From positions 1 through 40,383 of IMG/VR virus record IMGVR_UViG_3300032020_001001: a stretch of DNA of 40,383 nt, one strand, 5' to 3'. The notes beneath the pieces are model-generated. The model was not told where the DNA came from and searched no databases. It was given only the letters and a program-made list of their open reading frames with translations. The stretch comes from a virus. The position numbers and the translations under genes are program-made. Below are positions 9,551 to 37,748 of the stretch, piece by piece (the first letter of the stretch is position 1; every line of letters begins with the position of its first letter).

Positions 9551-10483
9551 TCAATACCCCGAGGTCGCATCTGTCAGCCGCACGTTTGGGCTCTTCCCGG
9601 TCACGGTCAGCCAGCGGAAGCCCACGTTCTCCTCCATCAAGCCCTCCGTTGGATCCGCGTCATACTCGCTGAAGTCGCTATTCGGTGACTGCATCACGCA
9701 CTTGAAACTGCCGACACTGAACTCGAACCCGATGTCCCTGCGGTCCCCCGCCCAGTAATCGGCGCGCCTGTCGGTGTTCTCGAAGATGCGCCGGAATCGC
9801 CCCTCCACCTCGAAGTTGCCCGCCACCACCTGCCCCACGCTCGCCAATCCCCCCGCCGTATGGCGGCGCTCCAGCAGGTTGCGGAACGTCATGCTGAACT
9901 GGTCGCAGAGCAGGTCCTCGGCCGAGTCCACGAAGAATTTGAACCCGGTGCGCGAGAAGGCGTCCTCTGTCGGGAACGTAGCCTGCGCCTTGGTGGTCGT
10001 CACGGCCGTCTTTCCAATGATGTCCACTTCGCAGGCCAGCACCGCTGTCGGGTCGGCGTCCAGGCTCAACGTGATCTCGTTCACGCGGCAGCCGGTGAAT
10101 CTGTTGCTCTGGATCGTCCCCCTATCCACCTCGATCGTCAGCGACGGGATGAACCCGCTCTGCACGTGGGTGAATGTGTGCGTCCACAGGCTTGAGCCGA
10201 CCACGCTTGTGGTCTGCACCCCGAAGGCGCTCAGCAGGAACATCCCCAGCACGGAATCGGGCCCCGCGTCGAATCCGATCCGGCCGCCTACCAGGTCAAC
10301 GCCCCTGCGCACCCGGCGCAAACCCCGAATCCCGACCGCAATGTGCGCCGGATATTCGATCGCAATGTCCCGGTCCAAAGCCAGGACGTTCGCCCTGTCC
10401 TCGAACAGCACCGGCGCCACCGCCACGCCCCACGAACTCACTTCCACGCCTGCGCCCAGTTGTGATAGCCTACCTGCTGGCAT
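9551..10483 (-). CDS. Major tail tube protein, 310 aa
   Basis: The subunit of the tail tube. The chain is strand-rich with tube-like stretches: VSSWGVAVAPVLFEDRANVL, VRRGVDLVGGRIGFDAGPDS, VLGMFLLSAFG, HTFTHVQSGFIPSLTIEVDR, NEITLSLDADPTAVLACEVD, FEVEGRFRRIFE, and a C-terminal FRWLTVTGKSPN. The G-x-x-L-D-x-D pattern of subunit contacts is seen in many siphovirus tube proteins. It is followed by the tail chaperone pair and the tape measure, the normal order. Confidence 0.78.
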   Translation of the reverse strand: MPAGRLSQLGAGVEVSSWGVAVAPVLFEDRANVLALDRDIAIEYPAHIAVGIRGLRRVRRGVDLVGGRIGFDAGPDSVLGMFLLSAFGVQTTSVVGSSLWTHTFTHVQSGFIPSLTIEVDRGTIQSNRFTGCRVNEITLSLDADPTAVLACEVDIIGKTAVTTTKAQATFPTEDAFSRTGFKFFVDSAEDLLCDQFSMTFRNLLERRHTAGGLASVGQVVAGNFEVEGRFRRIFENTDRRADYWAGDRRDIGFEFSVGSFKCVMQSPNSDFSEYDADPTEGLMEENVGFRWLTVTGKSPNVRLTDATSGY

Positions 10484-10826
10484 CGTCCTTCTCCCTGTCC
10501 TTGGCCTTCATCGGCCAGATTCTCAGACGCTTCAAAAGCGCCGCTGAGCAGTCGTCTGCTGCACCAGGCTCGCCGCCCGTCATGTTCCCGCCTTCGTCTT
10601 TCGCTACACCCGGGCTGTGGAATCCCCCGTTCGTGCACAACAGCCGCACCGTCTCGGGATCCTCGCCCACCACCAGTTCGCCCGTCTTCCATATCCTGTT
10701 CAGGGCCGAGACTTCCCGTCCGGGCCCCAGCCACACCACGCACGTCTTCGCCTCAGGCTGTGACGGCTTCGAGTTGCGATTCAGGTTGGGCTTCTTCTTC
10801 GGCTGGTTGTCCGTCATCTCGCTCAT
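10470..10826 (-). CDS. Small tail-region protein, up to 118 aa
   Basis: The ATG at 10826 lies inside the end of the fusion gene, an overlap of 74 bases in another frame. GTG codons at 10739 and 10736, just after that gene, are possible shorter starts. The better part of the protein reads TCVVWLGPGREVSALN, IWKTGELVVGEDPETVRLLC and ends in the basic KAKDREKDDASR. No family is recognised. Its stop overlaps the tail tube start. Its place suggests a tail assembly role. Confidence 0.5.
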   Translation of the reverse strand: MSEMTDNQPKKKPNLNRNSKPSQPEAKTCVVWLGPGREVSALNRIWKTGELVVGEDPETVRLLCTNGGFHSPGVAKDEGGNMTGGEPGAADDCSAALLKRLRIWPMKAKDREKDDASR

Positions 10827-13737
10827 CGAATGCGAACTCCTCGTTCTCCGCTGCCTTCGCCGCTGTGATTCCCTGCCTTATCATTTCCCCAAGGTATTGG
10901 TCCGCCTCCTCGATCGTCTCGAATCGCGCCCGCGCCCCCAGTTTGAAATCCTGCCCGGAACGCAGGAATTCCGCGGGCACGACCGCCATCTGCGCCTCCA
11001 CTTCGTAGCCGATTCCCAGCATCAAAAGCGCCTTCCCATACCACTCCAACGCCTGGTGATACCTGGGCTGGTTGGCCATCTGCGGGATCTTGCCGCGGAA
11101 CAATTCCACCGCCTCCACGAGCAGCGCATAGGGCTGGCTCCATGCCGGCGGCGGCAGCGGTATGTTCTGTGTTTCGCACAGGAACCGCGCCGACTGCACC
11201 AGGTCCCGCAGCACGAAATACACCCCCAGCGCCCTCTCCGGGTATTCCTGCCTATCGCGCTCCAGGTAGGGCAAGTTCCGAAAGAAACGTAGCCGCCGCG
11301 TCTTCTCGTCTCTGTAGCCGTCGTGCGCAATGATGACGTTCGAGAGTGTGCTATTCGGCTCGATGGAATGATTCAATTCCGTCTCCGGCTGCTCGTGTAT
11401 CACGCCGTAGAACCTGATGCCCCGACGATTGCGGAAACAACGGACTGGCGTGTCCACCACGGTCTCAGCGTCAACCATCATGTGCACCTGCCGGATCACG
11501 TAACCGAGATACACATTCTCACGCAGCCGGTGGCACAGCCGGTCCGGCCCCACCAGCACCTCGTCGTCGTCAATCCATAGAATCCAATCGCCTGTTGCCG
11601 GCGCGATGCTGATGTTACGCGCCTCGTCGAATCGGTTGGGCCACTGGTGTTCCTGCACGATGTCATCCCGACCAAGATATGGCCGCGCGATCTCCCTGGC
11701 GATCTGCGGCGCGTTGAAGAAGGTCAGGCAAATCTGGTCGGCGATCTCTCTCACCGATTCCAGAGTCCGCGCCAGGGTATGCCCTCCCCTCTCTCCCCCC
11801 ACGATCATGCAGACGCTCAAACTCTCCTGCGGCCGTTTGCGCAACTTTCTCTGCCACGAGAACCTGTGAATCGGCACCACCTTGTCCGGCTTGCAATACC
11901 AGACGGCGAACCAGCCCAGTTTCTCGCCCCTTGCCGTCGTGCCCGCCTCGGTCTGCAGTATCTCCGGGTGCCTGCCCTCCAGCATGTCCATCAGGTCGCG
12001 CGAGGAGAACGACCGCACGTGATAGACCGCCTGCTGCTCTGCGTCCGCACCCCGAACGCCGGAATCAGTGCTCGGCCACGATTGCGATTCCCACGGCCCG
12101 AACGGCACGGTCAGCAGCATCAGGCCGCCCGGCTTCAATATCTGCTCGAGTTGCTCAAGCAGGCCCCTCGGATCCGCCACGTGCTCCAGTATTTCGCCGG
12201 CCCACACAGCCTCGAACGGCCCGCCCTGCGCGTCCAGCGGCGACGCCGCAATCTGAACTCTCACCTTCTCGGCCAGGCCGCGCTCTGCGATGATCTGCTC
12301 GGCTTTCTCCCCATTCGCAGCGGCGCAATCAACCGCCACGACTTCCCAGCCCATCTCCGCAGCGATCACGGCGAACGCCCCCTGCTGACAGCCGAAATCG
12401 AGCAGCCTCTTCCCCGCGCCAACCTTGTCCCCGAACCCCTTCAACTGCTCCGCCAGCCATTTCCCCCGCGCGCTCTGCGCGATCTGGGCCACGTCGTCAA
12501 CGTAACCCTCCTTGGCCGCCGCCTTTTCGTAGTGCTGAAAATACGCTTTGCCCGATCGCAGAAAATCCAGCCCCTCGCGCGCGTCCGTCGAAAGGCCCGC
12601 CTGCACCAATGCCTCCCTGTCCCCATGCCGCCGCAGCGACCGCACCAGGTTCTTCTCGTCCCAGGCCAGCGCATCTGCGAACATCTCCAGCCACTCGCCC
12701 GCAATCCTGTCCCACGCATAGCGTTTGCTGTTCTGTTTGCCTGCCTCGCCCCATGTCGCGCGCTGCGCCCCGTCTGTCAGCGCGCGCACGGCCGCCGCCG
12801 CGAACTCCACCTGGTATTCCTCACTCGCCGGATCCCCTTTCACCAGCACTCCCGCCTCCGGGCTGACCGTCTCCTTCAACGCGCAGTAATCCCCCGCGAT
12901 CACGGGCAATCCGCACGCCTGTGCCTCGATTGCCGCGATGCACGAAACCTCGGGGAAGTGGGAAGGATAGACGAGCGCCGAGGCTCTTTTCAAGAGCGCG
13001 TAGAACTCCGGCTTGCTCAACCCGCCCACGCTCTCGACTCCCTCCAGGCCGCTCACCCGCTCGAATGGCATGAGGCATTCTGGCCGTTTATCTGCCGCGG
13101 GATGCAGATAGGTGCACAGCACCAACTTCGCCTCCGGCGCCTGCGCCCTGATGCGGGGCCATATCTCCGCCAGGTGAGAAAGGCCCCGCTCCGGGCGACT
13201 CGCGTAGATCAGCAACGGCTGACGGCCGTCGGGCTCAGGTTCGGCCGCCACCAGTTCAGCCGGGAATCCGTTTCGCGTCTCTGTTATGATCGGCTTCAGC
13301 GCCGGCACATGCCCCAGCCACTGGTCGGCGTGGAACTGGGATAAGAGCAGCATCCGGTCCATGAACGGCAGGAGTGCCTGCAGGTATTTGGCCGTCGCCA
13401 CGGTCAGGATGTCGTGGCCCCACAGGCACTGCAACTGGGCCACACCTTCGGCTGCCAGTAGGCCCGGGTCTCGCAGCAGCACCGCTACGTCGCACTCGAA
13501 AAAGCGTCTGAAGGTCTGCCACGACTGCAGGTTGTGATACCGGACTCCGAAATGCTCCCCCTCCTCCGTGCAGTTGCAGAACACTTGCACACGCGCCCCC
13601 AGGCGCGCCAGGGCCTCTGCCATGAATACGCACGCACTCTCGGAGCCGCCCAGGCTCGCAACCCGGGGCGTGCGCCCGTCGAAAGGCAGGGCCCCCGTCA
13701 CGAATACGATATCGAGAGGTAGGCTATTGCCGGGCAT
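10753..13737 (-). CDS. Three-domain glycosyltransferase-methyltransferase-glycosyltransferase fusion, 994 aa
   Basis: Residues 1-365 are a GT-B (GT4-like) glycosyltransferase: GGSESACVFMAEALARLGAR, LLIYASRPERGLSHL, and FPEVSCIAAIEAQACGLPVI with the E-x7-E-type acidic region. Residues 400-620 are a class I methyltransferase: RLLDFGCQQGAFAVIA (motif I, 445-460), WEVVAVDC, AVWAGEILEHVADP, LKPGGLMLLTVPFG. Residues 638-830 are a GT-A (GT2-like) glycosyltransferase: SVCMIVGGERGGHTLARTLE and GDWILWIDDDEVL with the metal-binding DDD. A helical region and an acidic tail follow. The target sugar is unknown. It lies between holin and tail genes, so virion or host glycan decoration is likely. Confidence 0.88.
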   Translation of the reverse strand: MPGNSLPLDIVFVTGALPFDGRTPRVASLGGSESACVFMAEALARLGARVQVFCNCTEEGEHFGVRYHNLQSWQTFRRFFECDVAVLLRDPGLLAAEGVAQLQCLWGHDILTVATAKYLQALLPFMDRMLLLSQFHADQWLGHVPALKPIITETRNGFPAELVAAEPEPDGRQPLLIYASRPERGLSHLAEIWPRIRAQAPEAKLVLCTYLHPAADKRPECLMPFERVSGLEGVESVGGLSKPEFYALLKRASALVYPSHFPEVSCIAAIEAQACGLPVIAGDYCALKETVSPEAGVLVKGDPASEEYQVEFAAAAVRALTDGAQRATWGEAGKQNSKRYAWDRIAGEWLEMFADALAWDEKNLVRSLRRHGDREALVQAGLSTDAREGLDFLRSGKAYFQHYEKAAAKEGYVDDVAQIAQSARGKWLAEQLKGFGDKVGAGKRLLDFGCQQGAFAVIAAEMGWEVVAVDCAAANGEKAEQIIAERGLAEKVRVQIAASPLDAQGGPFEAVWAGEILEHVADPRGLLEQLEQILKPGGLMLLTVPFGPWESQSWPSTDSGVRGADAEQQAVYHVRSFSSRDLMDMLEGRHPEILQTEAGTTARGEKLGWFAVWYCKPDKVVPIHRFSWQRKLRKRPQESLSVCMIVGGERGGHTLARTLESVREIADQICLTFFNAPQIAREIARPYLGRDDIVQEHQWPNRFDEARNISIAPATGDWILWIDDDEVLVGPDRLCHRLRENVYLGYVIRQVHMMVDAETVVDTPVRCFRNRRGIRFYGVIHEQPETELNHSIEPNSTLSNVIIAHDGYRDEKTRRLRFFRNLPYLERDRQEYPERALGVYFVLRDLVQSARFLCETQNIPLPPPAWSQPYALLVEAVELFRGKIPQMANQPRYHQALEWYGKALLMLGIGYEVEAQMAVVPAEFLRSGQDFKLGARARFETIEEADQYLGEMIRQGITAAKAAENEEFAFDERDDGQPAEEEAQPESQLEAVTA

Positions 13738-13743
13738 CGCAGG

Positions 13744-14094
13744 CTACATCGGCACCGGCTTGCGGTGCTTCAGCCAATTCTGCGCGGCGGCGATCACGAA
13801 CCCGAGGATTCCCCCTGCCGGAATCGCCCACAACGCCTTGTTCCCGTGGAGTAGTGTTACCCAGTCGCTCATCTTGGCGATGACAAGGGGCGCTACACCG
13901 GTGGCGGCTGCTGCGAGAACGCCTCCGAACCAGGACTTGCGCAACCACGTATTCCAGTTCATCTTCTCCTGGCTCTTCAACCAGGCCGATGCCGCCTTGC
14001 CAAACTCATCCAGCGCCTGCTTCGTGGCTGCATCGGCAGCCGCTGCCGCGCGATGCTGCACCTGCGCATCTATCCACTTGCTGATTGCGCTCAT
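13744..14094 (-). CDS. Two-helix membrane protein, holin candidate, 116 aa
   Basis: The ATG at 14094 follows GGAGGTTGAC, a strong ribosome site. An N-terminal charged helix (about residues 1-50) leads to two hydrophobic segments, WFGGVLAAAATGVAPLVIA (55-73) and LWAIPAGGILGFVIAAAQ (88-105), and a short basic tail WLKHRKPVPM. This is the shape of class II holins. The gene lies in the lysis block after the endolysin and the secreted protein. A longer open frame reaches upstream over those genes and is rejected as start. Confidence 0.68.
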   Translation of the reverse strand: MSAISKWIDAQVQHRAAAAADAATKQALDEFGKAASAWLKSQEKMNWNTWLRKSWFGGVLAAAATGVAPLVIAKMSDWVTLLHGNKALWAIPAGGILGFVIAAAQNWLKHRKPVPM

Positions 14095-14567: not shown

Positions 14568-15032
14568 TCACGCCATCTCCACGTGGCACTTGTCCCCAAG
14601 TTTCCAATCGCCGCCCCACGCCAACCCCCCTTCCATAGCCGCCGTCTTCCAGTCCGCCCACACGTGCGGCGGCCACTTCCATGACGGCTCGTATTCGTCG
14701 GTCTGTCCGCGCCGCTTGCACGGCACTACGTCCGCCGCGAATCCCCCGCTCCCGGGATAGCGCTCCTGGTGATTGCTCTTCCGCGCGTACCCATCCTTAT
14801 CCGTGACCGTGGATCCCGCTGGTGGCCACCGACGCCATTTCCCCAGAATGCACTTTCTGCCCTTTTGGTAAAGACCAGCCTGCTCCCGGGCCGTCCGTAG
14901 CCCCGACCAGATCACGGGCCGGTATCCCAACGCCTTCAGCCGCCCAATCATCTTGTCAACGCGCTCGCGGCAGGCCGGGTTCAGGGTCTGCAGCATCCGC
15001 CAGTTGCGCTCGTTGATCCCTGCGGCGGTCAT
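14568..15032 (-). CDS. Endolysin, M15/VanY-type peptidase, 154 aa
   Basis: A zinc peptidase that cuts peptidoglycan peptides. The family motifs are clear: IWSGLRTAREQAGLYQKGR (42-60), SNHQERYPGSGGFAADV with zinc ligands H88 and D101, and DKCHVEM with H150. This is a single catalytic domain without a cell-wall binding part and without a signal peptide, so it depends on a holin. The start ATG at 15032 overlaps the preceding TGA. The size fits M15 endolysins of phages of Gram-negative hosts. Confidence 0.88.
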   Translation of the reverse strand: MTAAGINERNWRMLQTLNPACRERVDKMIGRLKALGYRPVIWSGLRTAREQAGLYQKGRKCILGKWRRWPPAGSTVTDKDGYARKSNHQERYPGSGGFAADVVPCKRRGQTDEYEPSWKWPPHVWADWKTAAMEGGLAWGGDWKLGDKCHVEMA

Positions 15033-15298
15033 GGCCTTTTCTCCGCGCATTTCCGCGTGCTCTCAACCACCCTGTCCACGCTTGCCGTCAGGCTCTGCAT
15101 CGCGCCCATCTGCTGCGTCAGTACCTCGCTGTTGTGATTCAAGTGGTTCTGCACGATGTCGCTGAACCGGCGCTTGTCCTCTGCGTGGCTCTCCGCCATG
15201 CGCTTCTGGTTCTCCAGGGTGTTTTTCAGCAGCCACGCGAACGCCACCGCGATCACTCCCATGCCGCCCAGGTTCGCCCAACTCTCAAATCCGTTCAT
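15029..15298 (-). CDS. Membrane-anchored coiled-coil protein, holin or spanin candidate, 89 aa
   Basis: One N-terminal membrane helix (LGGMGVIAVAFAWLLKNTL, about residues 10-28) is followed by a long charged coiled coil (ENQKRMAESHAEDKRRF, and onward). The topology resembles i-spanins and BhlA/holin-like phage proteins. It lies just before the endolysin and its stop overlaps the endolysin ATG as ATGA, so a role in lysis is likely. Whether it acts as holin or spanin cannot be told from sequence. Confidence 0.62.
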   Translation of the reverse strand: MNGFESWANLGGMGVIAVAFAWLLKNTLENQKRMAESHAEDKRRFSDIVQNHLNHNSEVLTQQMGAMQSLTASVDRVVESTRKCAEKRP

Positions 15299-15314: not shown

Positions 15315-15776
15315 CTAAAGCTTCCGCGCCCGCGCCTCCAGCGTGATCACCCCGGCCGCAATGTAGGACGCCTGCTTGTCATCTCTCCCCATCAGCCACT
15401 CGGTAGTCTGCCCCCACGACTGGGTCACGGAGCCGCCCCAGGTCTGGTCCGACTGCAGGATGTTTTCGATCGCCTCCAGATATTGCAGCAGCGAGTCCTG
15501 GCAGGTCTGCGGGCTGGTCAGGTCCATCACCGCCACGTGTATCTCGAACCTGTAGTGGTAATCCCTGGTCCCGCCCGACAGGTTCCACGCCGCATCGCTG
15601 ATCTGGTCCGCCAGCACCACCGCGACGATCGGGAACGCCCCCGCCGATTGCACCTCCGCGAAACTGTGCAGTTCCTTGCACCATGTCACCACGGTGCTCA
15701 GATTCGCATGGTCGTGCAGCAGCGCGTACAGCGCGTCCCTGATTACTAGGTATCTCGTGCTCGCCGGCAGCGACAT
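15315..15776 (-). CDS. Tail terminator-like protein, 153 aa
   Basis: The protein begins STRYLVIRDALYALLHDH and has a mixed strand and helix pattern: FPIVAVVLADQISDAAWN, YHYRFEIHVAVMDLT, CQDSLLQYLEAIENIL. This matches the small proteins that cap the tail tube (lambda gpU-like and similar). It follows directly after the completion protein, and its product would normally be followed by the tail tube gene; here the lysis cassette comes first. There is no unique motif, so position carries much of the weight. Confidence 0.6.
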   Translation of the reverse strand: MSLPASTRYLVIRDALYALLHDHANLSTVVTWCKELHSFAEVQSAGAFPIVAVVLADQISDAAWNLSGGTRDYHYRFEIHVAVMDLTSPQTCQDSLLQYLEAIENILQSDQTWGGSVTQSWGQTTEWLMGRDDKQASYIAAGVITLEARARKL

Positions 15777-15777
15777 G

Positions 15778-16326
15778 CTAGGCGACTCCCCGGGCGTGCT
15801 GGATCACAAACTCGACGGCTTTGTGCATCGCCTGGTCGTCCTCCGGCAATTGGGTCAGGAACGGCCGCCTCGGAATGTTGCGCCGCGGATCTCCGAACTG
15901 ATGCGTCCGCCCGCGCGGCAATCCAGTCCCTATCTCAAGTAGGTCCCCGGTGATTCTATAAACTCCGCGCCCCGTGGCATCGCCCACCCCAGGCTGCCCC
16001 ACACTAGCCTTCATGATGCCTTCGTCCTGCAGAATCCTAACGCCGCGCATCATCGTGCCCCCGCGCTGCAGCAGGATGCTGCCCCGCGGCCCCTTCGTCT
16101 TCCGCCTGCCCGCGCGCGCTAGCAGCCGCCGCCGAATCGTCGTCCACTTCAGCGGTGCCCACCTCGCCGGCCTCCCCTCCGCGGCGAACGTCCTCATGCT
16201 CGACCGGATGATGATCTGCCCCAGCATCCCGAAGAGTTGATTGCGGTACACGTTGGGAGAGAGGTTTTCGAGCGCCATTTTGACGGGAGGGAGTCCCTGC
16301 CACTTGAACGTCAGCATGACGCCCAT
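15778..16326 (-). CDS. Phage virion morphogenesis protein (Mu gpG-like, tail completion), 182 aa
   Basis: The ATG at 16326 shares one base with the previous TGA. Features of the Mu G-like virion morphogenesis family are an N-terminal helix with IIIRSSMRTFAAEG, then RPARWAPLKWTTIRRR, SILLQRGGTMMRGVRI, and a C-terminal TGLPRGRTHQFG, RRNIPRRPFL. The protein helps join head and tail. The frame is open further upstream but overlaps the connector gene. The order connector, completion protein, terminator is the normal one. Confidence 0.75.
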   Translation of the reverse strand: MGVMLTFKWQGLPPVKMALENLSPNVYRNQLFGMLGQIIIRSSMRTFAAEGRPARWAPLKWTTIRRRLLARAGRRKTKGPRGSILLQRGGTMMRGVRILQDEGIMKASVGQPGVGDATGRGVYRITGDLLEIGTGLPRGRTHQFGDPRRNIPRRPFLTQLPEDDQAMHKAVEFVIQHARGVA

Positions 16327-16808
16327 CAGGCCACGCCCCTCGCCTGATCGTCCGTCTGGCTGCGCTGCCCCTTTGTCCCCCATGCAATCTCTGGTTGCGT
16401 CGAGAAGACGGGGTGCCCATATTGGCCCCCGAACTCGATCCTGCTCACCCGTTCCTGTGGCTCGGTCCGCCCCGCGCCTTCCAGGGCCAACTCGCCGTTA
16501 CGGATGCGCTCCAGCAATCCCCGCCCCTCCTCTGCCAGTTCGTTCGCCGCCGCCATGTGCTCCTCGTCCAACTTGGCAGTCGAGTGCATGGCGATTCGGG
16601 AGGCCGCGAGCAGCCGTGAAATGTTGGTGATGATGGGCGGCACCACCGAGAACGGCACCTGGCAGAGTCCTTGCAACGCCGCGTCAATCTCGGCATCCGC
16701 GTAAGAAATCTCATTCGCTACGCTGATCGAAGTGTTGCCTGACAATATCTGGGAAAGGAGCGGCAGCACCCCCTCGATGTCGGTCTGCGTGCAGTAGGCC
16801 ATCTGCAC
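16326..16808 (-). CDS. Head-tail connector, DUF1320/Mu gp36-like, 160 aa
   Basis: The N-terminus AYCTQTDIEGVLP matches the start of the DUF1320 group (Y-x-T-x-x-D-l). Residues 35-65 (SYADAEIDAALQGLCQVPFS) carry the family's acidic helix with a D-A-E-I-D pattern, and a later helical part reads RLLAASRIAMHST. These proteins sit under the portal as connector. The start may be the GTG at 16808 or, better spaced from AGGAAG, the ATG at 16802, giving 158 residues. The stop shares a base with the next ATG (TGATG). Confidence 0.7.
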   Translation of the reverse strand: MQMAYCTQTDIEGVLPLLSQILSGNTSISVANEISYADAEIDAALQGLCQVPFSVVPPIITNISRLLAASRIAMHSTAKLDEEHMAAANELAEEGRGLLERIRNGELALEGAGRTEPQERVSRIEFGGQYGHPVFSTQPEIAWGTKGQRSQTDDQARGVA

Positions 16809-18204: not shown

Positions 18205-19179
18205 TTACGGCACGATGTCGGCGTAAACCACTGCGTCCGGGACCTTGATAACCGGCATGAAGTACTGCTCCACCAGGCAGTGAATGCCGCTCGGGTCTTC
18301 CTCCATCCAGGTCTTGGAAAATAAGCCCGGGTTGTCGGCCGCCCGCACGTCTTCAGACTGCCCGGTCAGCATCTGCATACCCGCGTCTGCCGGGCGCGGC
18401 ACGATGATCACGTGCCCGGAGTCAATGAACTGCGTGAATGTCCCGCTCGCGTCGTAGCCCCCATTGTATTGCACCACGTCCAGTCCGCACAGGCGCGCGA
18501 GCCTTCCGTCCCGGATCAGGCTTCCGGCGTTCACGGGCTCCTTCATGTAGTTCTGGATCGTGGTGTTGTTGATCAGATACCCGGCCACGGTGTCGTCAAT
18601 CCAGAGCTCTGCGGGATCCTGCCCGGAATCCTGCTGCACGAGTTTTTTCCAGGTCATGATGTCGGCGATGATGTTCGTTGTCGTGGTCGCCCAGGTCACC
18701 CCCGCCGTGGGCTTGTGGGTCGTGGCGAACCCGAGGTCCACGGTCACCGTGGTCCCGTCCTCGTAGGTGATCACGTAACTGCCCGTCAGCGCCGACGCCC
18801 TGGCAAACTCCTTGGCAAACTCGATCTCGGCGGTCAGCGCAAACAACTTGTCGCGCACCGCAGCCATTCCATAGCGCTCGGTTTGGCTCCCGGGCATCAC
18901 GCCGAAGCGCATGTCCACTCCGGCTGCCAGGTCGCGCAATCGTATCCGCGCCATGGTGAAACTCTTCCGGCTGCGCACGATCGGGTTCCGGCGCGTAGCG
19001 GGTGAGCCTCCCACGGAGGCCGGTGGAACCGTCCGCGGCATCTTCAGCACGTCCCACTTTGCCGTGATGCTGCCCCGCACCGGCTCTTCGGGGAAAAGCC
19101 GCGCCATCAGGAAATTGCGGTTCTCGAACAGCCGCACGCTCTCGGTCGCCACATCGCTTTCAACGAGAAGTTCTGCCAT
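18205..19179 (-). CDS. Major capsid protein, lambda gpE-like family, 324 aa
   Basis: The main head shell protein. GGAGGATTGAG precedes the ATG. Family features of the lambda E type are visible: the TESVRLFENRNFLMARLFPE start, FTMARIRLRDLAAGVDM, an acidic helix EIEFAKEFARASALTGS, MTWKKLVQQDSGQDPAELWI, YMKEPVNAGSLIRDGRLARL and a late HVIIVPRP strand. Length is close to lambda E (341 residues). It follows the scaffold and decoration genes in the expected order. High expression is likely given the clean ribosome site and its own short leader. Confidence 0.88.
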   Translation of the reverse strand: MAELLVESDVATESVRLFENRNFLMARLFPEEPVRGSITAKWDVLKMPRTVPPASVGGSPATRRNPIVRSRKSFTMARIRLRDLAAGVDMRFGVMPGSQTERYGMAAVRDKLFALTAEIEFAKEFARASALTGSYVITYEDGTTVTVDLGFATTHKPTAGVTWATTTTNIIADIMTWKKLVQQDSGQDPAELWIDDTVAGYLINNTTIQNYMKEPVNAGSLIRDGRLARLCGLDVVQYNGGYDASGTFTQFIDSGHVIIVPRPADAGMQMLTGQSEDVRAADNPGLFSKTWMEEDPSGIHCLVEQYFMPVIKVPDAVVYADIVP

Positions 19180-28830: not shown

Positions 28831-30585
28831 TTATCCCGGAAATAGACTCTCCGACGCCCGCACCTCTTGCTCCCGTATCTCGATCAGGCCGTTGCGGCGC
28901 AGGATGGAAAAGTAATTGCCGAAGGTGCCGCCACTGGCTGTATAGCCTGACCTCTCACCCAGTGTGTCCTTAGTCATCCAATCCGGCCAGGACCCGATGA
29001 GAACGTCCAACATCTTTGCGGGTCCGGCCGGTAAATTGAGGCGCCACATATCCACGAGTTCCTCGTGTGTCTCCGGCGCCGGCGGAACTGCACCCGCATG
29101 ATCAATTCCTTCCTCGGTTGCAAACACGCCCTGCCTGTCCTCGGCGATCACCCCGGCCCTGCGCAGTTGGCTGAAGTAGTTGGAGAATGTCCCCCCGCCC
29201 GCGGTGTATCCGGCTAGGGTGCCGAGTTGTCTGCGGCTCAAACGAATCGGCGATCGCTGCGCCAGCACCTTCAGCATCTTCAGCGCACCTTTGCCGAGCG
29301 ATCCAGTATCTGCATCGGCCGATTGACGATTTGATAAATCTGTCAATTTATGTCTGGCCGCGGCACGTGGAGTCGGCAACGGCGCACTCGTCGGACGGGC
29401 CACACTCGCTCCCGCAATATTGCGAGGATCCGCGAGCCTTATGAAGGTATCCGCCGCATCCGAAGCCATCCTGGCAACCCGGCGCAGCACCGGGGCCATC
29501 TTTGCGATATCCGCCTGCACCCGCTGGCTAAAGGATTTGAATTGTCGGTCACAGTCACGGCGTGCCGCTTCCACGCTGCGCTTGATCTGCGCTGCGGTGT
29601 GAGCTTGCTCGGTCGGATTTGCCACGGCGCTGCGCTTAGCCAGCGCGGCCTCGTGCGTGAGTTCTCGGACGCGGCGTTGCAGGCTGGCCACAGTGCTCGC
29701 TTCCTGCTCCGCCTCTTTCGGCAGGTCGCTGAGTTTGGGGAGCATGGCAAGGACTCGCTCCGGCGGCGGCGGCGGGCCCAGCGCGACCTTGCCGGCGATC
29801 GCAACTTCCGGGTGATGCGTCTGGACAACACCGATCTCCGTCAGCGTGATCTCGCTCAAGATGGCACGGCCCAGACAGAAGAACTGACCCGGATCAAGCC
29901 GCATCATCTGGCGAACCATCTCGGCCTGCTTCTCCCGTGACAGACCGAGGGCTTGCACCGCTCGCTTGCAGTCAATGTCCAGCGTCGTCGGCCCGATCAG
30001 GATGTTCCCGCACTGCGCTGCTGCATCCTTGCTCAGACTGGCCAGCCGTTGCGTGGCCAGGACGGCGCAGAATCCGCGCTTGCGCCCGCGCTGGCAGAGG
30101 CTGATCACGGCGTCGCTGGACTCGGATTCTTTGCCCTCGGGGCAATATACATGTGATTCGTCGATCACGACCAGAACCGGATGCCAGAGGTTTTTCGGGC
30201 TGTTGATCAGGCCGTCCAGGAAGAGTTTCACGAACTCGCGCCGGTCGGCCATGCGCCGCATTTCGTAGAGGTCGAGCACTGCATTGGCCCTCAACTCGAG
30301 CAGACGCTGGGCGAGCAGTGCCGCGATGCGCGGCTCCGTGGCCACGTCGCCGCCTTTGCCAGCCACAACATACGGGAACTTCTCTCGGAGACTGGAGAAC
30401 TCGCCCTCGGGGTCAATGATCAGAATCTGGATCTTGCCGTCGGCCTGCTCCACGATGCGGCGCACCGTGTACGACTTCCCGCCGCCCGAGTTGGCCTGAA
30501 TCAGCAGGCGTGTGGCGACCAACCTCTCCAGGTCAATCCACACCCGCTGACCGCCGGCGACTGTCTGGCCGAGTTCAATCTTCAC
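28831..30585 (-). CDS. HerA-like (DUF87/FtsK-type) ATPase with two C-terminal winged-helix-like repeats, 584 aa
   Basis: Walker A is IQANSGGGKSYT (near residues 29-40), Walker B is VLVVIDESH (137-145), and a conserved GRKRGFCAVLATQR follows. These are features of HerA-type hexameric DNA-translocating ATPases. Residues 270-370 are helical and probably coiled coil. The C-terminus holds two copies of one module, residues 436-480 (KMLKVL...GYTAGGGTFSNYFSQLRR) and 524-570 (KMLDVL...GYTASGGTFGNYFSILRR), which look like winged helices. Archaeal HerA works with NurA, Mre11 and Rad50; the last two have homologues here, but no NurA is seen. The start is GTG, without a strong ribosome site. Confidence 0.85.
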   Translation of the reverse strand: MKIELGQTVAGGQRVWIDLERLVATRLLIQANSGGGKSYTVRRIVEQADGKIQILIIDPEGEFSSLREKFPYVVAGKGGDVATEPRIAALLAQRLLELRANAVLDLYEMRRMADRREFVKLFLDGLINSPKNLWHPVLVVIDESHVYCPEGKESESSDAVISLCQRGRKRGFCAVLATQRLASLSKDAAAQCGNILIGPTTLDIDCKRAVQALGLSREKQAEMVRQMMRLDPGQFFCLGRAILSEITLTEIGVVQTHHPEVAIAGKVALGPPPPPERVLAMLPKLSDLPKEAEQEASTVASLQRRVRELTHEAALAKRSAVANPTEQAHTAAQIKRSVEAARRDCDRQFKSFSQRVQADIAKMAPVLRRVARMASDAADTFIRLADPRNIAGASVARPTSAPLPTPRAAARHKLTDLSNRQSADADTGSLGKGALKMLKVLAQRSPIRLSRRQLGTLAGYTAGGGTFSNYFSQLRRAGVIAEDRQGVFATEEGIDHAGAVPPAPETHEELVDMWRLNLPAGPAKMLDVLIGSWPDWMTKDTLGERSGYTASGGTFGNYFSILRRNGLIEIREQEVRASESLFPG

Positions 30586-31809: not shown

Positions 31810-32415
31810 TCACGGCTTGCCCTTCGCAAACAGAATAGGTTGCATCCGGCGTCCCAGTTGTTGTTGTCGCCACTTTATGATGCGGAGCAGCGCCTGTCGT
31901 GCTGCGATGAGCGGTTGCCGGGCATCAGCTCGCTGCCGCGCCCACAACCGATGTTGTCGCCGTGTCTCCCGCGCATGGCATTGCCAGCACAAACTCAGAT
32001 AATTATCGAGGTCCCACCCGTGGCCGCCGTCGGCGACTGCGACCAAGTGGTGGGCCTCCCAGGCCGTGCGGTTCCATAGTCGCTCCAGACCCATCTGCCG
32101 CAGAAAATCCCGCCAGCGCTCGGAATACATCCCCATCCCATCCGATCCCCCGGCCACCCGCAGGCGGAATAACTCCGCTTCGAGTGCGTCGCAGTCGAGT
32201 CCGCACTCCCAGCACACGCCCTGGTCGCGCTCGAAGAGCCGTGAACGCACGACTGCCGGGCTGGCCAGCATCAGATACTGCTCGACGCATTCGTCGTGCC
32301 AAGTGCGGCGCGGTTTCGCAGTTGGCTCCCCGCACCACCGACAGATCCCCTTCGTCGTGGGCAGGCGCATCCGGGCGAGACGCTGCTCGATCGTTACCAC
32401 GGCATCTCGTCCCAC
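31810..32415 (-). CDS. HNH endonuclease, 201 aa
   Basis: Cys pairs near the N-terminus (CRWCGEP, HDECV) and before the active site (CWECG) suggest structural zinc. The nuclease core reads TAWEAHHLVAVADGG, then LDNYLSLCWQCHARET, which fits the H-H-N/H arrangement of HNH enzymes. The ATG at 32415 overlaps the end of the DUF5131 gene by 22 bases; a GTG at 32400 is an alternative start. The C-terminus is basic and helical. This is the second of three HNH genes in the window. Its role, DNA processing or homing, cannot be told from sequence. Confidence 0.82.
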   Translation of the reverse strand: MGRDAVVTIEQRLARMRLPTTKGICRWCGEPTAKPRRTWHDECVEQYLMLASPAVVRSRLFERDQGVCWECGLDCDALEAELFRLRVAGGSDGMGMYSERWRDFLRQMGLERLWNRTAWEAHHLVAVADGGHGWDLDNYLSLCWQCHARETRRQHRLWARQRADARQPLIAARQALLRIIKWRQQQLGRRMQPILFAKGKP

Positions 32416-33236
32416 GTGCGCCCCTCGAGGCGCCGGCCCGCGGCCTTCACACCCACCCGATAGACGACCCGCCCGTCTGGGAACTCGTGCCCGCGGGCCC
32501 GCCGGAATCGCTCCGGGTCATTACCCATGATAGCCCATTCGCCCCATCCCTTGAAGAAGAAGTCGACCCCGCCGTCCCAGCACTGATCGCGCGTGGACAG
32601 GACCCACGCGGGGTTCATGGGTCTCGCGCCCGGGCCGTTCTCCCCGCCCACCACCACCCAATCCAGCCGCGAAGTTCCCAGAGTCGTGTCGAGCACCAGA
32701 TCGCCCACGCCCTGCCCCCATTCCATCTCCAGGTCGACAGGCCCCAGCAGGGGTTCAAGGCTCACGAACCTGTGCGCCGCAGGCGTCTGGAGCAGAATCG
32801 GTATGCGCTCGTCGGCTGCCGCCTGGTTCTCGGCGCTGACGCCCAGCCAGACGTTGGACAGGGGCCAGACATGCAACTTCTCTAGCCAAGCAAGGCGCGC
32901 CTTCATCACGGCGGGCACCTTCGTCAAGAGCATGTAAAGATGGCGCGGTGTGTCCTGCATCACGCGGAAGACCTTGGGCAGGTAATCAGGGTGCAGACTC
33001 GGCTCGAACAATTCCCCCATCAGGCAGACCGCCACGCGACGCGGCTTCCCCCATCGGTAGGGTTCATTCAGCCGGTCGGGATGGAACGTCGGCCTGAACG
33101 GATCGTCCGCGGGATACCCGAAGCGCCCGCGCAGGCGCTGGGCCATGCGGCGCGCCCAGCAGTAGGTGCAGCCGCGAGTGCAGCCGGTTACGGGGTTCCA
33201 GGACGTATCCCACCAGAGGCTGGAATCGCCGCTCAT
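32394..33236 (-). CDS. DUF5131 (phage Gp37/Gp68) family protein, radical-SAM-like, 280 aa
   Basis: The N-terminus SLWWDTSWNPVTGCTRGCTY, followed by CWA, is typical of the Gp37/Gp68 phage family. Cys 19, 23 and 26 give the C-x3-C-x2-C pattern of radical SAM enzymes, which bind a 4Fe-4S cluster. Other family stretches are visible: LMGELFEP, YMLLTKVP, VWLGVSAENQ, RFVSLEPLLG, WVVVGGENG and FFFKGWGEW. The biological reaction is not known. The start overlaps the SbcC stop as ATGA, so it is co-translated with the recombination genes. The family call is strong; the catalytic role is open. Confidence 0.88.
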   Translation of the reverse strand: MSGDSSLWWDTSWNPVTGCTRGCTYCWARRMAQRLRGRFGYPADDPFRPTFHPDRLNEPYRWGKPRRVAVCLMGELFEPSLHPDYLPKVFRVMQDTPRHLYMLLTKVPAVMKARLAWLEKLHVWPLSNVWLGVSAENQAAADERIPILLQTPAAHRFVSLEPLLGPVDLEMEWGQGVGDLVLDTTLGTSRLDWVVVGGENGPGARPMNPAWVLSTRDQCWDGGVDFFFKGWGEWAIMGNDPERFRRARGHEFPDGRVVYRVGVKAAGRRLEGRTWDEMPW

Positions 33237-35527
33237 GCCGCGATCACCTCCGCATGGCTGCCGTTCGCGTCCTTGGTCACCTGGATCAGACAGGGAAAGG
33301 CATCCTTCAGGTCCTCGGTGTGTGTTATGCAGAGCACGGTAGCAAACCGGTCAGCGATGCGGCTCAGGCAGTCCACAAAAAGTGTTCTCCCTTCCATATC
33401 CAGCGGCGCGGCAACCTCGTCGAGACATAGCATCTCGCAGCGGGCGCCCGCCCGATGTGCGAGCAGAGTTGAGAGCCCCACCCGCAACGCCAGGTCCACA
33501 CGCATCGATTCCCCGCCTGAGAATGTTTCATACGCCCTCTCTGCATTCTCGTCCGCGATCAGCACATCCAGCGTCTCCTGGAGTGTGCCCGCCTTCGTCT
33601 CTCGCTGACTTTGCAGCCGCAGGCTCATCCGGCCGTCGGTCAGCACGGTCAGCACCTCGTTGGCCGCTGCCTCCAGATCGGGCACAGCGCGCTCGATCAG
33701 TAGCGCTGGCACTCCCGCTTTGCTGCAAGCCTGCGCCAGGATCTTGAGGGCGGTGATGCGACGGCCTGCCGCGTTGATTTCAACCGCGAGTTTCTGGGCC
33801 TGCTCCCCCGCCTGCTTCGCCGCCTCCAGGCGCGCCTGCGTCGCCCCGCGCTCTCGCCCGCAGCCCTGAATCATTTTCTGCAAGTCGCCGATCGCGCTGC
33901 GCACCGAACTGATCTGACGGTCTATGCAATCCAATAACCCCCGCCAATTCTTCTCGGGGCCCAGGGATGCAGCCAGTTCCTCGCATTGCTTGCCCAGATT
34001 CTCCCGTTCGGCTGATCGCGTCTCGACCGCTGCCTGTATCTCGGCGGTCTGCGCCCCGGCGCGTTCCGACTCGGTCAGCCGCTGCTGCAATCCGTTCATC
34101 CGCGCAGCCGCGGCCTTCAGTTCCTGGTGGGCCTGCGCGTCGTAGCCTAATGCCATGCGCTTCGCCTTGACACCATTCACCGCCCCCATGTGTTCTGCGC
34201 CGGGCTCCTGGCCGTGAAGTTCCTCCAGCCGCGTCTCGTCTTCGGCCCACGGCTGCTGCGCGAGCAGCCCCTTCAGTTTCTCTTCAAGTGCCGGCAGTGC
34301 CGCGGCGGCTTCTCGCGCCTGGGCGATCAGCGGGCACTTGTCTCGAATAGCGAAGAACGAGGGGCGCGTGGCCTCGTCAACCGGATTGGCGCACGGCACC
34401 TGGTCGAGAACTTCACTCTGCTTCCGCAGCCCCTGGATCGCCGATTCGCAGTCAGCGACTTCGCGCCCATGATTTCGCTGCGCGTCCGCTATCCGGCGAG
34501 TCAGAGTTTCGACTTCCCCCCTGTGCTCGCGGAATGCCGCCTCGTATTTCTGTTGCGTCAGGTCCGCCTCGTGTTTCAGCCGGTCGTCTTCCTGCCGCGT
34601 CCCCTCCATCGCCTCGGCCTGGGTCTGTGCTTCCTCGACTTCTGCGATCGCCGCCTTGACCTCCTCGACCTCTCCGGCCTTTTGCTGCAGCGCCGCGATG
34701 CGCCCCTTGCCCTCTGCGATTGCCTGTTCCGCCGTGGCCAACTGCTTCCTGATGTCCGCCAACTGGGACCGCCGGGCGCGGTCGGCTGCTTCGTCGCGCA
34801 CGATGTTCTCGCGCGCACTCTGTCCTTCCGCGAGTTCTGTTTCCTTGGCCGCAACGCTGCTCTGATGAGTCTGCTGTTGGGCTTCGAGTCTGGTCATCTC
34901 ATCTGCTATCGCCTCTGCCTGCGCTGCCTGCTGTTCGTATTCTACAAGCCGCGCCCGGTCGTTCTCTGTCTTGCCCGCCAGGTCGGACTGCATCTGCCGC
35001 GCGATCTGCGCGCGCTTCTCCCATGCCTCCAGGTTCAGGATCTCGGCCAGCACCTGCTTTCGCTGCGCCGGCTTCGCCTGTGAAAAGGCGGCCGCATTCC
35101 CCTGGTTTGCACAGGCCGTCATGACGAAGAGGTCATCGCCCATGCGCAGCAGATTCTCGATGCGCGCCTGGGTTTCGACTGCGCTCTTGCCGTCCAGAAT
35201 CCGCCAGCCGTCGCCGGTGTTGGTCTGGAATGAGAGCAGGGTGCTCCCACTCCCCTTCCGGCTGCGCTGCCGGCTCACGAGATACGTCTCGTCGCCCAGG
35301 GCGAAAGTGAACTCGACCCGGCACCTGTCCTGCCCCCGCGTGATGATTGAATCCAGCGGACCGCGCGTGGTTCCGAACAAGGCGAACCTGATGCTGTCCA
35401 CGCTGAGCGTTGACTTGCCCGCGCCGTTAGGACCGGACAGTACCGCGAGATTCACACCAGAGAGATCTATATCGTGATCTCCCTGAAAGGACCCGAAATT
35501 CTCAAGTACAATCCTAAGTGGCCGCAT
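33233..35527 (-). CDS. sbcC: SbcC/Rad50-type ATPase, 764 aa
   Basis: An SMC-like ATPase. The N-terminus MRPLRIVLENFGSF leads to Walker A GPNGAGKST (about residues 32-40). A long coiled coil fills roughly residues 165-620. Near its middle VPCANP and DKCPLI (Cys 379 and 398) mark a zinc-hook-like tip. The C-terminus has the ABC signature FSGGES (near 669) and Walker B MLCLDE (near 699-704). It would work with SbcD as a DNA-end clamp and nuclease. It is shorter than E. coli SbcC (over 1,000 residues). The start is the ATG at 35527 inside the HNH gene end; an upstream ATG would add 26 unlikely residues. Confidence 0.92.
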   Translation of the reverse strand: MRPLRIVLENFGSFQGDHDIDLSGVNLAVLSGPNGAGKSTLSVDSIRFALFGTTRGPLDSIITRGQDRCRVEFTFALGDETYLVSRQRSRKGSGSTLLSFQTNTGDGWRILDGKSAVETQARIENLLRMGDDLFVMTACANQGNAAAFSQAKPAQRKQVLAEILNLEAWEKRAQIARQMQSDLAGKTENDRARLVEYEQQAAQAEAIADEMTRLEAQQQTHQSSVAAKETELAEGQSARENIVRDEAADRARRSQLADIRKQLATAEQAIAEGKGRIAALQQKAGEVEEVKAAIAEVEEAQTQAEAMEGTRQEDDRLKHEADLTQQKYEAAFREHRGEVETLTRRIADAQRNHGREVADCESAIQGLRKQSEVLDQVPCANPVDEATRPSFFAIRDKCPLIAQAREAAAALPALEEKLKGLLAQQPWAEDETRLEELHGQEPGAEHMGAVNGVKAKRMALGYDAQAHQELKAAAARMNGLQQRLTESERAGAQTAEIQAAVETRSAERENLGKQCEELAASLGPEKNWRGLLDCIDRQISSVRSAIGDLQKMIQGCGRERGATQARLEAAKQAGEQAQKLAVEINAAGRRITALKILAQACSKAGVPALLIERAVPDLEAAANEVLTVLTDGRMSLRLQSQRETKAGTLQETLDVLIADENAERAYETFSGGESMRVDLALRVGLSTLLAHRAGARCEMLCLDEVAAPLDMEGRTLFVDCLSRIADRFATVLCITHTEDLKDAFPCLIQVTKDANGSHAEVIAA

Positions 35528-36068
35528 GGTTTGCGCTCCTATCCATCGCTTGGTGGCGTTTTCGATGGCAACTGCGGCAGAGAGAAACGAGATTCGAGAG
35601 GTCATTATTTGAGGCTAGGCCGGTACTGTGACCAGTCCCGTCCACGTGATGGACATCCAACCGGTCCCCGTGGGCAGTTCCCTGCCGGTCGCCACAGTCC
35701 ATACAGCGGTAGTCGTCGCGTTGCAATGTCAACAAATCCCGGCCCCCGAAGTGGTGACGGGAATGATGCACGCGATTCTGCCTCTTGAGGGAGTCACGGC
35801 GCCGATCGCGGGACCGAGCAGCAGTCGCGAGTACCCGCTGGCGAAATTCTGGAACCTCTCGTGCCCGCCGTCGCTTGTAGCACGCCTGGCACAACCCCTT
35901 AGCATGAGCACTCCGGTGCCCACATTCAGAGCAAGGATTGTCGGCGCAGGTCCGCATCCCGCGACTGTGGCATCCTTTGCTGCAGTATCGCGCTCCGCGG
36001 GCGATGAGGGCCGCCCCGCGCTGAAACTGGCGACTGCACATCGGGCACGTGAGGGTGAGTGATCTCAT
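35514..36068 (-). CDS. HNH endonuclease with N-terminal zinc fingers, 184 aa
   Basis: The start is the ATG at 36068, which overlaps the preceding TGA. The N-terminal third carries several Cys pairs (CPMC, YCSKGC, CSECG, LCQACYKRRR) that look like zinc fingers. The C-terminal third is an HNH nuclease: YRCMDCG, LDVHHVDG, then NDLSNLVSLCRSCHRKRH. HNH enzymes cut DNA using a metal held by the His and Asn residues. It sits between SbcD and SbcC, whose products act together, so it may be either a mobile homing-type gene or a functional part of the set. The next gene starts inside its 3' end. Confidence 0.85.
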   Translation of the reverse strand: MRSLTLTCPMCSRQFQRGAALIARGARYCSKGCHSRGMRTCADNPCSECGHRSAHAKGLCQACYKRRRAREVPEFRQRVLATAARSRDRRRDSLKRQNRVHHSRHHFGGRDLLTLQRDDYRCMDCGDRQGTAHGDRLDVHHVDGTGHSTGLASNNDLSNLVSLCRSCHRKRHQAMDRSANHAAT

Positions 36069-36328
36069 CCGTCCACCTCGCTCTCGAACTCGCACTGCTC
36101 ATTCCAGCACGTGACCTTGTGCTTGTGCGCCACGTCAGGATCATGATCCGCCTGCTCCATGACTTCCGATCCGCACTTTGGGCAAGGGTGCTCGGTGTGG
36201 ATCAGTCGTAGGCTGAGATGCATTCTGTAATTGCGACCAGCAGTTGCCTGGCGTTCGCGACCTTCCTGATATTCGCGCCACTCTCCAAGGCGTTCCTCGC
36301 AAGTCTTCTGCTTTGTGGTCTTTCTCAT
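36065..36328 (-). CDS. Small zinc-ribbon protein, 87 aa
   Basis: An 87-residue protein with a polar, charged N-terminus and one four-cysteine cluster: CPKC near residues 49-52 and C-x4-C near residues 74-79 (CWNEQC). Between the pairs lies an acidic and His-rich stretch, ADHDPDVAHKHKVT. This is the layout of a zinc ribbon, which usually binds nucleic acid or protein. It is coupled by ATGA to SbcD upstream and to the HNH gene downstream, so it may be an accessory factor for DNA processing, but this is inferred from position only. Confidence 0.65.
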   Translation of the reverse strand: MRKTTKQKTCEERLGEWREYQEGRERQATAGRNYRMHLSLRLIHTEHPCPKCGSEVMEQADHDPDVAHKHKVTCWNEQCEFESEVDG

Positions 36329-37575
36329 GTTGGGCCCCCTCCGTTCATCGCTCCTTCAACTCTCTCCGCTTCCGCCATGACATCGGCCGTCAGCAACGCG
36401 AAGTCCGGGTGCTCCTGCAGCCAGACCTTGATTGCGTCCGCCGCTTGCATCTGCTCCGAGATCTCGACCGTGCGCCTGGGCGCAGCCGCCTCTCGCACCA
36501 CTTCAATCCGGACTTCACGTGCGCCAGCCTGCTCCAATCGCTTCGTGATTTCCGCAACCTCATGGGCCTCGCCCTCCGATATGCGCACCCGCACGATCGC
36601 CTGCCCAACGCCCCAATCCTCGAACGGCATGTGGGGATTGAACGGCTCCGCCATGGTGAATTCCAGCGTCAGAAAGTTCGTGTGCGGCGTCGGCACTCGC
36701 TCGAATGAAACCGCGCCGTGCTCGTCAATCTCGATCATGCAGAAGGACTTCTCCTCAGTCTCCTCACCGAAGCCCATCGCCTCGGGGGAACCGCAGTAGA
36801 GAATTGGTGCGCCTTCCGGCGACCATTCCTGCGGCTTGTGGATGTGCCCGAGAAGTATCGCATCGAAGTCCAATCCCTGCAGTTCGTGCAGCGGCAGCGT
36901 CCAATCTCCGCCGAGGACCATCAATCTCCCCTCGCTCCCGGCCGCCGCCGTGTCAACCGAAAAGTGGCCCAGTAGAATCGAGGGGACTCCCGGAACCCGC
37001 GCCTGTGCCAGCGCGCCCGCGCACTCCAGCATCTTGCGGCTCACAGCCTGGTTGAGTTCGCCAGGCGATAGCCGCCGGTATTCCTCCATCCCGAGCAGGA
37101 GTTGTTTATTGGGCCAGGGCAGGCAGGCGATCTGGAAGCCTGGGTTCATATCCTCGGTGGTCTCCAGCCCCGGCGGCCCAAGGATAACGCCTTCGTCGGT
37201 GCGCCAGGCGCTCACTAAGGACGGCTGGTCAATAATCCGAATTCCCTCAATGTCGCGCAGCAAGTCCAGCGCGTGCTTCTCACTCGGTGATCGAGGTGCT
37301 TCGTGGTTGCCCAACAGCACGAGCGTCGGCCAATGTCGGGCTGCCCTCTCCAGAATGTCTCGCGCAAGCCGAACCTCGCTCGGAGTCGGCCTGCAGGAAT
37401 CACAAACATCGCCCCCGATCAGAAAGAGATCAGCATTCCTCCTGATCCCCTCCTCGACGACGAACCGTGCGCATTCCGCGCGCCGGACGAGGGCGGCATT
37501 CAATCCGGTCTCGGGATCTATCCGGTTCCCGGCGGCCCCGATATGGAAATCTGCGGAGAAGGCAATTCGAATCAT
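36325..37575 (-). CDS. sbcD: SbcD/Mre11-type DNA nuclease (metallophosphoesterase), 416 aa
   Basis: A calcineurin-like metallophosphoesterase. The metal-binding motifs are all present in order: D9-x-H11 (FSADFHIG), GGD56, GNH91E, GH204FS and GH244IH246. Mre11/SbcD nucleases cut DNA ends together with the Rad50/SbcC ATPase, whose gene lies two genes downstream. Length is close to bacterial SbcD. The start chosen is the ATG at 37575, because it overlaps the preceding TGA and MIRIAFSADFHIG is the usual family N-terminus; a longer open frame begins at 37737 but its first 54 residues lie over the membrane-protein gene. The stop overlaps the zinc-ribbon gene as ATGA. Confidence 0.92.
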   Translation of the reverse strand: MIRIAFSADFHIGAAGNRIDPETGLNAALVRRAECARFVVEEGIRRNADLFLIGGDVCDSCRPTPSEVRLARDILERAARHWPTLVLLGNHEAPRSPSEKHALDLLRDIEGIRIIDQPSLVSAWRTDEGVILGPPGLETTEDMNPGFQIACLPWPNKQLLLGMEEYRRLSPGELNQAVSRKMLECAGALAQARVPGVPSILLGHFSVDTAAAGSEGRLMVLGGDWTLPLHELQGLDFDAILLGHIHKPQEWSPEGAPILYCGSPEAMGFGEETEEKSFCMIEIDEHGAVSFERVPTPHTNFLTLEFTMAEPFNPHMPFEDWGVGQAIVRVRISEGEAHEVAEITKRLEQAGAREVRIEVVREAAAPRRTVEISEQMQAADAIKVWLQEHPDFALLTADVMAEAERVEGAMNGGGPT

Positions 37576-37748
37576 CGCAGCCTCCTCCCCGCCCGCTCGC
37601 CGAACCACCAGGCAAGACTGTAAAGCGCGAATGCGATCGCGCCTGCCGCCACGCCCCACATCGTCGGCGCATAACCCAGCCGGTGATCGAGATACGCTCC
37701 CATCGCGCTCCCCGCGATCATCCCGAAACAGAACCACCAGCCGCTCAT
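37572..37748 (-). CDS. Small two-helix membrane protein, 58 aa
   Basis: Read directly from the sequence: it starts with the ATG at 37746-37748, which overlaps the upstream TGA, and ends with a TGA at 37572-37574, which overlaps the ATG of the nuclease gene. Two hydrophobic segments are visible, WWFCFGMIAGSAMGAYL near residues 4-20 and MWGVAAGAIAFALYSLAWW near 30-48, with a basic tail GERAGRRLR. It looks like a hairpin inner-membrane protein. It is wedged between the annealing-protein candidate and SbcD with ATGA on both sides, so it is very probably translated. Function unknown. Confidence 0.65.
   Translation of the reverse strand: MSGWWFCFGMIAGSAMGAYLDHRLGYAPTMWGVAAGAIAFALYSLAWWFGERAGRRLR

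Follow-up and report, generated by a model that had tools for sequence, protein, structure and literature searches.

We describe a three-enzyme fusion that is tied, with strikingly regular linkage, to one capsid lineage of uncultured tailed phages. In this protein a GT4-type glycosyltransferase, a SAM-dependent methyltransferase (MT) and a GT2-type glycosyltransferase share a single chain, and wherever a related capsid gene could be examined, the fusion lay next to it. Virion glycosylation as such is known in a few cultured phages, and no published description of a GT4-MT-GT2 fusion was found in the open-licence PMC literature. As a standing part of the capsid-and-tail block, the fusion suggests that these phages give their own virions a coat of methylated sugar. 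On our reading, which we hold with a probability of about 0.7, the protein is a soluble, one-chain glycan synthase of the late operon that modifies a structural protein of the phage itself with a short O- or S-linked glycan bearing a methyl cap; the major capsid protein (MCP) and the tail tube protein are the likeliest acceptors.

The gene (P0001) was studied in a window, by which we mean the whole stretch analysed, a 40,383-bp IMG/VR virus record. It occupies 10753..13737 and encodes 994 aa in a reading frame that runs from an ATG at 13737 to 10753 with no internal stop. The coordinates given in an earlier, sequence-only reading stand, with the correction that the gene lies on the minus strand, as do its domains and the neighbouring genes placed below. 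The AlphaFold2 model, built from a 75-member alignment (A4), is the structure prediction that had been proposed as a check, and it is confident (mean pLDDT 90.5, pTM 0.90), the low-confidence parts being the last ~20 residues (pLDDT <50 at 976-994) and a loop at 555-564.

The N-terminal domain (residues ~8-360; 12658..13716) is assigned from Pfam PF00534, Foldseek and conservation. Glycos_transf_1 matches at residues 170-335 (5.7e-16, 59 bits against a curated cut-off of 26.4), the EX7E pair is E263/E271, and the SLGGSE and RPERG motifs are near-invariant. Position 263 is E or D in 76/76 alignment rows, E271 is kept in 74/76 and R181-R184 in 76/76. Foldseek matched this part to the GT-B enzymes PimA, BshA, HepE and sucrose-phosphate synthase; the Pfam score, GT-B fold and EX7E pair together place it among GT-B enzymes of the CAZy GT4-like type. 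The Foldseek search also gave matches to the GT-A peptide glycosyltransferases SunS and ThuS. The central domain (residues ~420-620; 11878..12480; PF13489 and conservation) matches Methyltransf_23 at 429-588 (8e-19, above the curated cut-off) and has the glycine-rich SAM motif after strand 1 that marks class I SAM-dependent methyltransferases. In this motif, DFGCQQG, the key residues are D447, G449 and G453, joined further on by E518-H519; D447 is kept in 70 of the 72 rows with a residue there and E518/H519 in 70-71 of 71. Its nearest solved structures are mixed, comprising D-glucose O-MT, MitM, UbiG and N-methyltransferases. The GT-A domain of GT2 type (residues ~630-810; 11308..11850; PF00535, profile match and conservation) matches Glycos_transf_2 at 641-727 (2.3e-6, above the curated cut-off), and the DXD pair D723/D725, E726, H781-E782 and H805 are invariant in 76/76 rows. 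The sequence-only reading had proposed three enzymes with intact active sites, quoting ACGLPVI, DFGCQQG and WIDDDE; these motifs are present, all three domains pass their Pfam cut-offs, and the active-site residues are conserved. Beyond GT2, DSSP of the model assigns a four-helix region (811-907; 11017..11307), which on this model is possibly TPR-like, and the chain ends in a modelled beta/helix element with an acidic disordered tail (908-994; 10756..11016). The chain contains no membrane-spanning segment and no hydrophobic stretch long enough to form one. Recent acquisition of the fusion from a host was considered and rejected, as composition shows no break over 10.7-13.7 kb and matches the rest of the genome.

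In transcription order, the head side of the window runs through terminase, portal, minor head protein, protease, MCP (18205..19179; phrog_29, 9.4e-43), head-tail adaptor (16326..16808; phrog_195), tail completion/neck protein (15778..16383; phrog_26) and a tail terminator-like gene (15315..15776; phrog_4204). The adaptor and neck proteins are homologous to the fusion-adjacent clusters C02 and C04, respectively. There follow a holin-like gene, an endolysin (14568..15050; PHROG 465/2649), a 148-aa ORF, and a holin-like membrane protein of 116 aa with two hydrophobic segments (13744..14094), which stops 6 nt short of the fusion's ATG. After the fusion come a 118-aa ORF of unknown function that overlaps its 3' end (10470..10826), the tail tube gene (9551..10483; PF18906, 1.4e-18; phrog_290), an unknown gene, and the tape measure and tail genes. 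The placement between holin and tail tube genes that had been read from the letters is thus accurate, with the endolysin also upstream. A promoter and terminator scan near the fusion gene gave chance-level results. Elsewhere, the window carries a HerA-like ATPase (28831-30585), a DUF5131 protein (32394-33236) and an SbcC-like/SbcD-like pair (33233-35605 and 36325-37737).

Far from being an oddity of one phage, as first thought, the fusion belongs to the regular gene set of a large phage lineage. P0001 used as a single-protein query over viral contigs found no relative; relatives came to light when its GT2 segment, followed by alignments, served as the query. The GT2 segment gave 12 loci in IMG/VR, of which 8 encode the whole three-domain chain in one ORF, and the alignment scan returned 274 stretches with some relative, of which the best 80 were used. 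A scan of 84,980 species genomes added further full-length members, whose readable flanks are mostly phage-like. Together, the best 80 of the 274 stretches and the species genomes yield ~95 IMG/VR and MAG loci with a full-length GT4-MT-GT2 in one ORF, nearly all of 940-1100 aa, forming roughly 70 clusters at 85% identity. An assembly chimera, the case that would have undone the original observation, is rejected because dozens of assemblies made independently contain the fusion at full length. For the pairs computed, dN/dS is 0.03-0.25 in every domain, hence purifying selection acts on all three. Distance matrices of the domains are correlated (Spearman 0.44-0.63), as expected if the three mostly travel together. 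Among 50,697 phage genomes, no record covered 80% of P0001 and no cultured phage carried the fusion. The terminase, used as an anchor, retrieved distant relatives only, and a scan with the window-type tail tube gave three loci only, showing that the clade to which the window belongs is sparsely sampled.

The proposed search for the same fusion and its neighbours in other phages thus found it, linked to capsid and tail genes. Across non-redundant loci, neighbour clustering gives a repeated order of portal, protease, a head protein of ~125 aa, MCP (phrog_1005), fusion, head-tail adaptor and neck, continuing into a terminator-like gene, tail tube and tape measure. In every locus where MCP and tail tube were both found (31/31), the fusion lies between the two, and it shares its strand with the MCP in 47/50. 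Even in L024, L059 and L077, where its orientation is opposite to that of the virion genes, it remains in the slot between MCP and adaptor. When IMG/VR was scanned from the MCP instead, the fusion was present in 44/44 loci with at least 4.5 kb downstream among the best 80 hits, a count biased towards the fusion lineage because loci with the fusion supplied the MCP profile. Within the same best 80 hits, it was present in 34/34 loci that did not overlap those of the fusion scan and in 36/36 distinct MCP clusters, at a median gap of 414 bp. The scan describes the fusion-associated MCP lineage rather than all its relatives. The cultured Roseobacter phages RDJL Phi 1 and CRP-6, whose MCPs are ~28% identical, have the slot without the fusion, which is therefore not needed for this capsid fold. 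The fusion is a phage-encoded glycosyltransferase linked to virion genes, which is the genetic part of what defines phage virion glycosylation.

A second MCP family (phrog_1328) precedes the fusion in L034, L099, L103, L104, L111 and L122; its alignment was too divergent to serve as a scan query. The window's MCP (phrog_29) represents a third type, and here the fusion has shifted, within the MCP-tail tube interval, to the tail side. Its distance of ~4.5 kb from the MCP, with the tail tube gene as its neighbour, means that the acceptor in the window could differ from that elsewhere. In nine related loci (L024, L037, L039, L048, L066, L068, L082, L089 and L094), an HNH endonuclease gene (~176 aa) directly precedes the fusion, as if the two could move together.

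How the chain might work is suggested mainly by its GT2 domain, whose best PDB matches by profile are GmaR (1.3e-38), SunS (2.6e-28) and ThuS (3.3e-26); with its GT-A fold and DXD motif, the domain falls in the GmaR/SunS type. SunS and ThuS are glycocin S-glycosyltransferases that put sugar directly on bacteriocin peptides. GT2 enzymes can extend glycans too, and a nearest solved relative that acts on protein is no proof of a protein acceptor. GmaR attaches O-GlcNAc to flagellin (PMC9638930). Since these closest relatives place sugars directly on protein or peptide, the C-terminal GT2 would act first, putting a sugar on a side chain of a virion protein; the N-terminal GT4 would add a second sugar, and the central MT would O-methylate the glycan as a cap, all while the particle is being made. 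We infer the acceptor, sugars, linkage and step order, as well as the benefit to the phage, which may be shielding, stability or adsorption.

An unlikely but credible variant keeps the virion target, and so overlaps our main reading, while reversing the steps, with GT4 acting first and GT2 as extender. It would follow the N-to-C order of the domains, and GT4 enzymes are able to act on proteins too. The similarity of GT2 to GmaR, SunS and ThuS is, however, far stronger than any GT4 match to an enzyme with a protein acceptor, the best structural hits of GT4 use sugar, lipid or small-molecule acceptors, and both glycosyltransferases are kept in relatives that lack the MT.

These same relatives indicate that METHYLTRANSFERASE is optional in the GT4-MT-GT2 chain. 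The members closest to P0001 are L121, L122 and L126 (39-42% identity in GT4, 47-48% in GT2), and in these, as in L128, GT4 is joined to GT2 without an MT. In a tree of GT4 and GT2, the MT-less relatives group with the MT-bearing P0001 and L034 (support 0.991), and this group is nested inside a wider group of triple fusions. The simplest reading of the tree, which is midpoint-rooted, is that the MT was probably lost in relatives on the P0001/L034 branch, a gain being the less simple alternative; L127, outside that branch, also has no recognisable MT. The order first proposed for the glycan, namely sugar, methyl group, sugar, is unsupported, because the closest relatives do without the MT and because GT2, nearest to the protein glycosyltransferases, is likelier to act first.

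As to the acceptor, virion proteins and host surface glycan had both been suggested. The former is by far the best supported, given that the fusion's place between MCP and tail tube is conserved, and the latter is less likely. MCP and tail tube are the most likely acceptors because both bracket the gene wherever both are seen. A glycan on the tail fibres or on some other minor virion protein, made by the same enzyme to tune adsorption, seems to us improbable. The fusion does adjoin tail genes in the window, and the MCP is not singled out by the position of the fusion, which varies with respect to the adaptor and neck genes. Yet the genes that constantly flank it are the MCP on the upstream side and, on the downstream side, those for adaptor, neck and tail tube; fibre genes are not among them. 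Neither the MCP nor the tail tube protein of the window has a conspicuous Ser/Thr-rich tail. Some Ser/Asn columns (L031 MCP positions 75, 82 and 131-134) are conserved among the MCPs that accompany the fusion, and two cultured relatives differ there; as candidate glycosylation sites, these alignment columns are too thin to claim.

Modification of a host surface polysaccharide (LPS, capsule or teichoic acid) during infection or lysogeny, resulting in a superinfection block or serotype change, is a common job of phage glycosyltransferases, and L117 and L128 sit prophage-like in long MAG contigs or chromosomes. We nevertheless judge it highly unlikely for the fusion, which has no transmembrane segment, is set in a late virion operon and is constantly linked to the MCP. 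No flippase, lipid-carrier partner or GtrA/GtrB-like partner was recognised among the window genes scanned, and with no transmembrane window either, the fusion falls outside the Gtr serotype-conversion type. The least probable target by our estimate, and a very unlikely one, is phage DNA, its bases glycosylated and methylated to guard the genome from restriction: virus-encoded DNA-hypermodifying glycosyltransferases are known (Pyle et al. 2024, as cited in PMC12619734), but the window genes scanned (a subset of its ORFs) included none recognised as coding for a base hydroxylase, a TET-like enzyme or a hydroxymethylase, so that the fusion lacks the co-encoded base-modifying enzyme of that type in this set, GT2 is closest to protein glycosyltransferases, and the linkage is to capsid rather than replication genes.

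Several known systems resemble a virion-directed glycan synthase in part. In mycobacteriophages, glycans have been reported at the C-terminal ends of the capsid and tail tube proteins (Freeman et al. 2023, as cited in PMC12619734 and PMC12691614). As far as these citing accounts describe them, they are alike in having phage-encoded glycosyltransferases and in bearing glycans on capsid and tail tube, the candidate acceptors here; they differ, in this comparison by description, from one conserved MT-bearing three-domain chain in a fixed MCP-tail slot of an uncultured lineage. Chlorovirus PBCV-1 protein A064R joins two glycosyltransferases and one MT, and extends and methyl-caps a capsid-protein glycan (PMC7826918), so a viral chain of this make-up is capable of the extending and capping steps proposed here, again likened by description. 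A064R differs in belonging to a eukaryotic virus, in its 638-aa length and GT-GT-MT order, and in using two rhamnosyltransferases on an existing N-glycan (PMC7826918); P0001, with its order GT-MT-GT instead of two glycosyltransferases and a C-terminal MT, is not of the A064R type. GmaR of Listeria and SunS and ThuS of Bacillus, the nearest solved relatives of the fusion's GT2, are cellular or prophage-borne, have no GT4 or MT and target flagellin or glycocins, and GmaR is an antirepressor as well. A plasmid protein of Planctomyces sp. SH-PL62 (WP_082859083) has GT-B, MT and GT2 in the same order in one chain of 1336 aa, and is about 30% identical to P0001, mainly in MT and GT2. It is cellular, unlike P0001, and has an extra GT2, a long TPR tail and a GT-B of another family (PF13524). 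Podovirus ctKR88 from Manatee Spring (MW202524) likewise has a fused GT2 and GT4 shortly after a phrog_1328-like capsid gene (UOF78238.1, 'beta4glucosyltransferase'), in reversed order, with TPR between the two glycosyltransferases and no MT in the chain.

If the particle is decorated, glycan-coated capsids would be a common feature of environmental tailed phages and would bear on how stable the particles are, how they adsorb and how immune systems recognise them. The fusion also offers one soluble enzyme that might make a defined, methylated, protein-bound glycan. A wider picture, which we offer tentatively and would not quite back, is that an uncultured siphovirus lineage has fixed capsid glycosylation in its morphogenesis, the dedicated one-chain enzyme, whose gene directly follows that of the MCP, decorating each subunit of the capsid (or of the tail tube) with a methyl-capped glycan, while extra GT4 and radical-SAM/methyltransferase genes diversify the coat in sublineages.

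Further enzymes accompany the capsid genes in some loci. Radical SAM proteins of ~240 aa, one or two per capsid cassette, occur in L031:272-2569, L052, L071, L086, L092, L100, L105 and L157, often between portal and protease and sometimes flanking a methyltransferase or FkbM-type methyltransferase; these are possible further virion tailoring enzymes. Some sublineages have extra GT4 paralogues (~320-360 aa) or a GT4-MT (~615 aa) between MCP and fusion (L028:2938-4782, L032:2886-4745, L025, L029, L117, L196, L217 and L230). In the Manatee Spring siphovirus ctf1B273 (L003:5616-7184), a GroEL-like chaperonin gene stands amid glycosyltransferase and methyltransferase genes in the terminase-portal interval.
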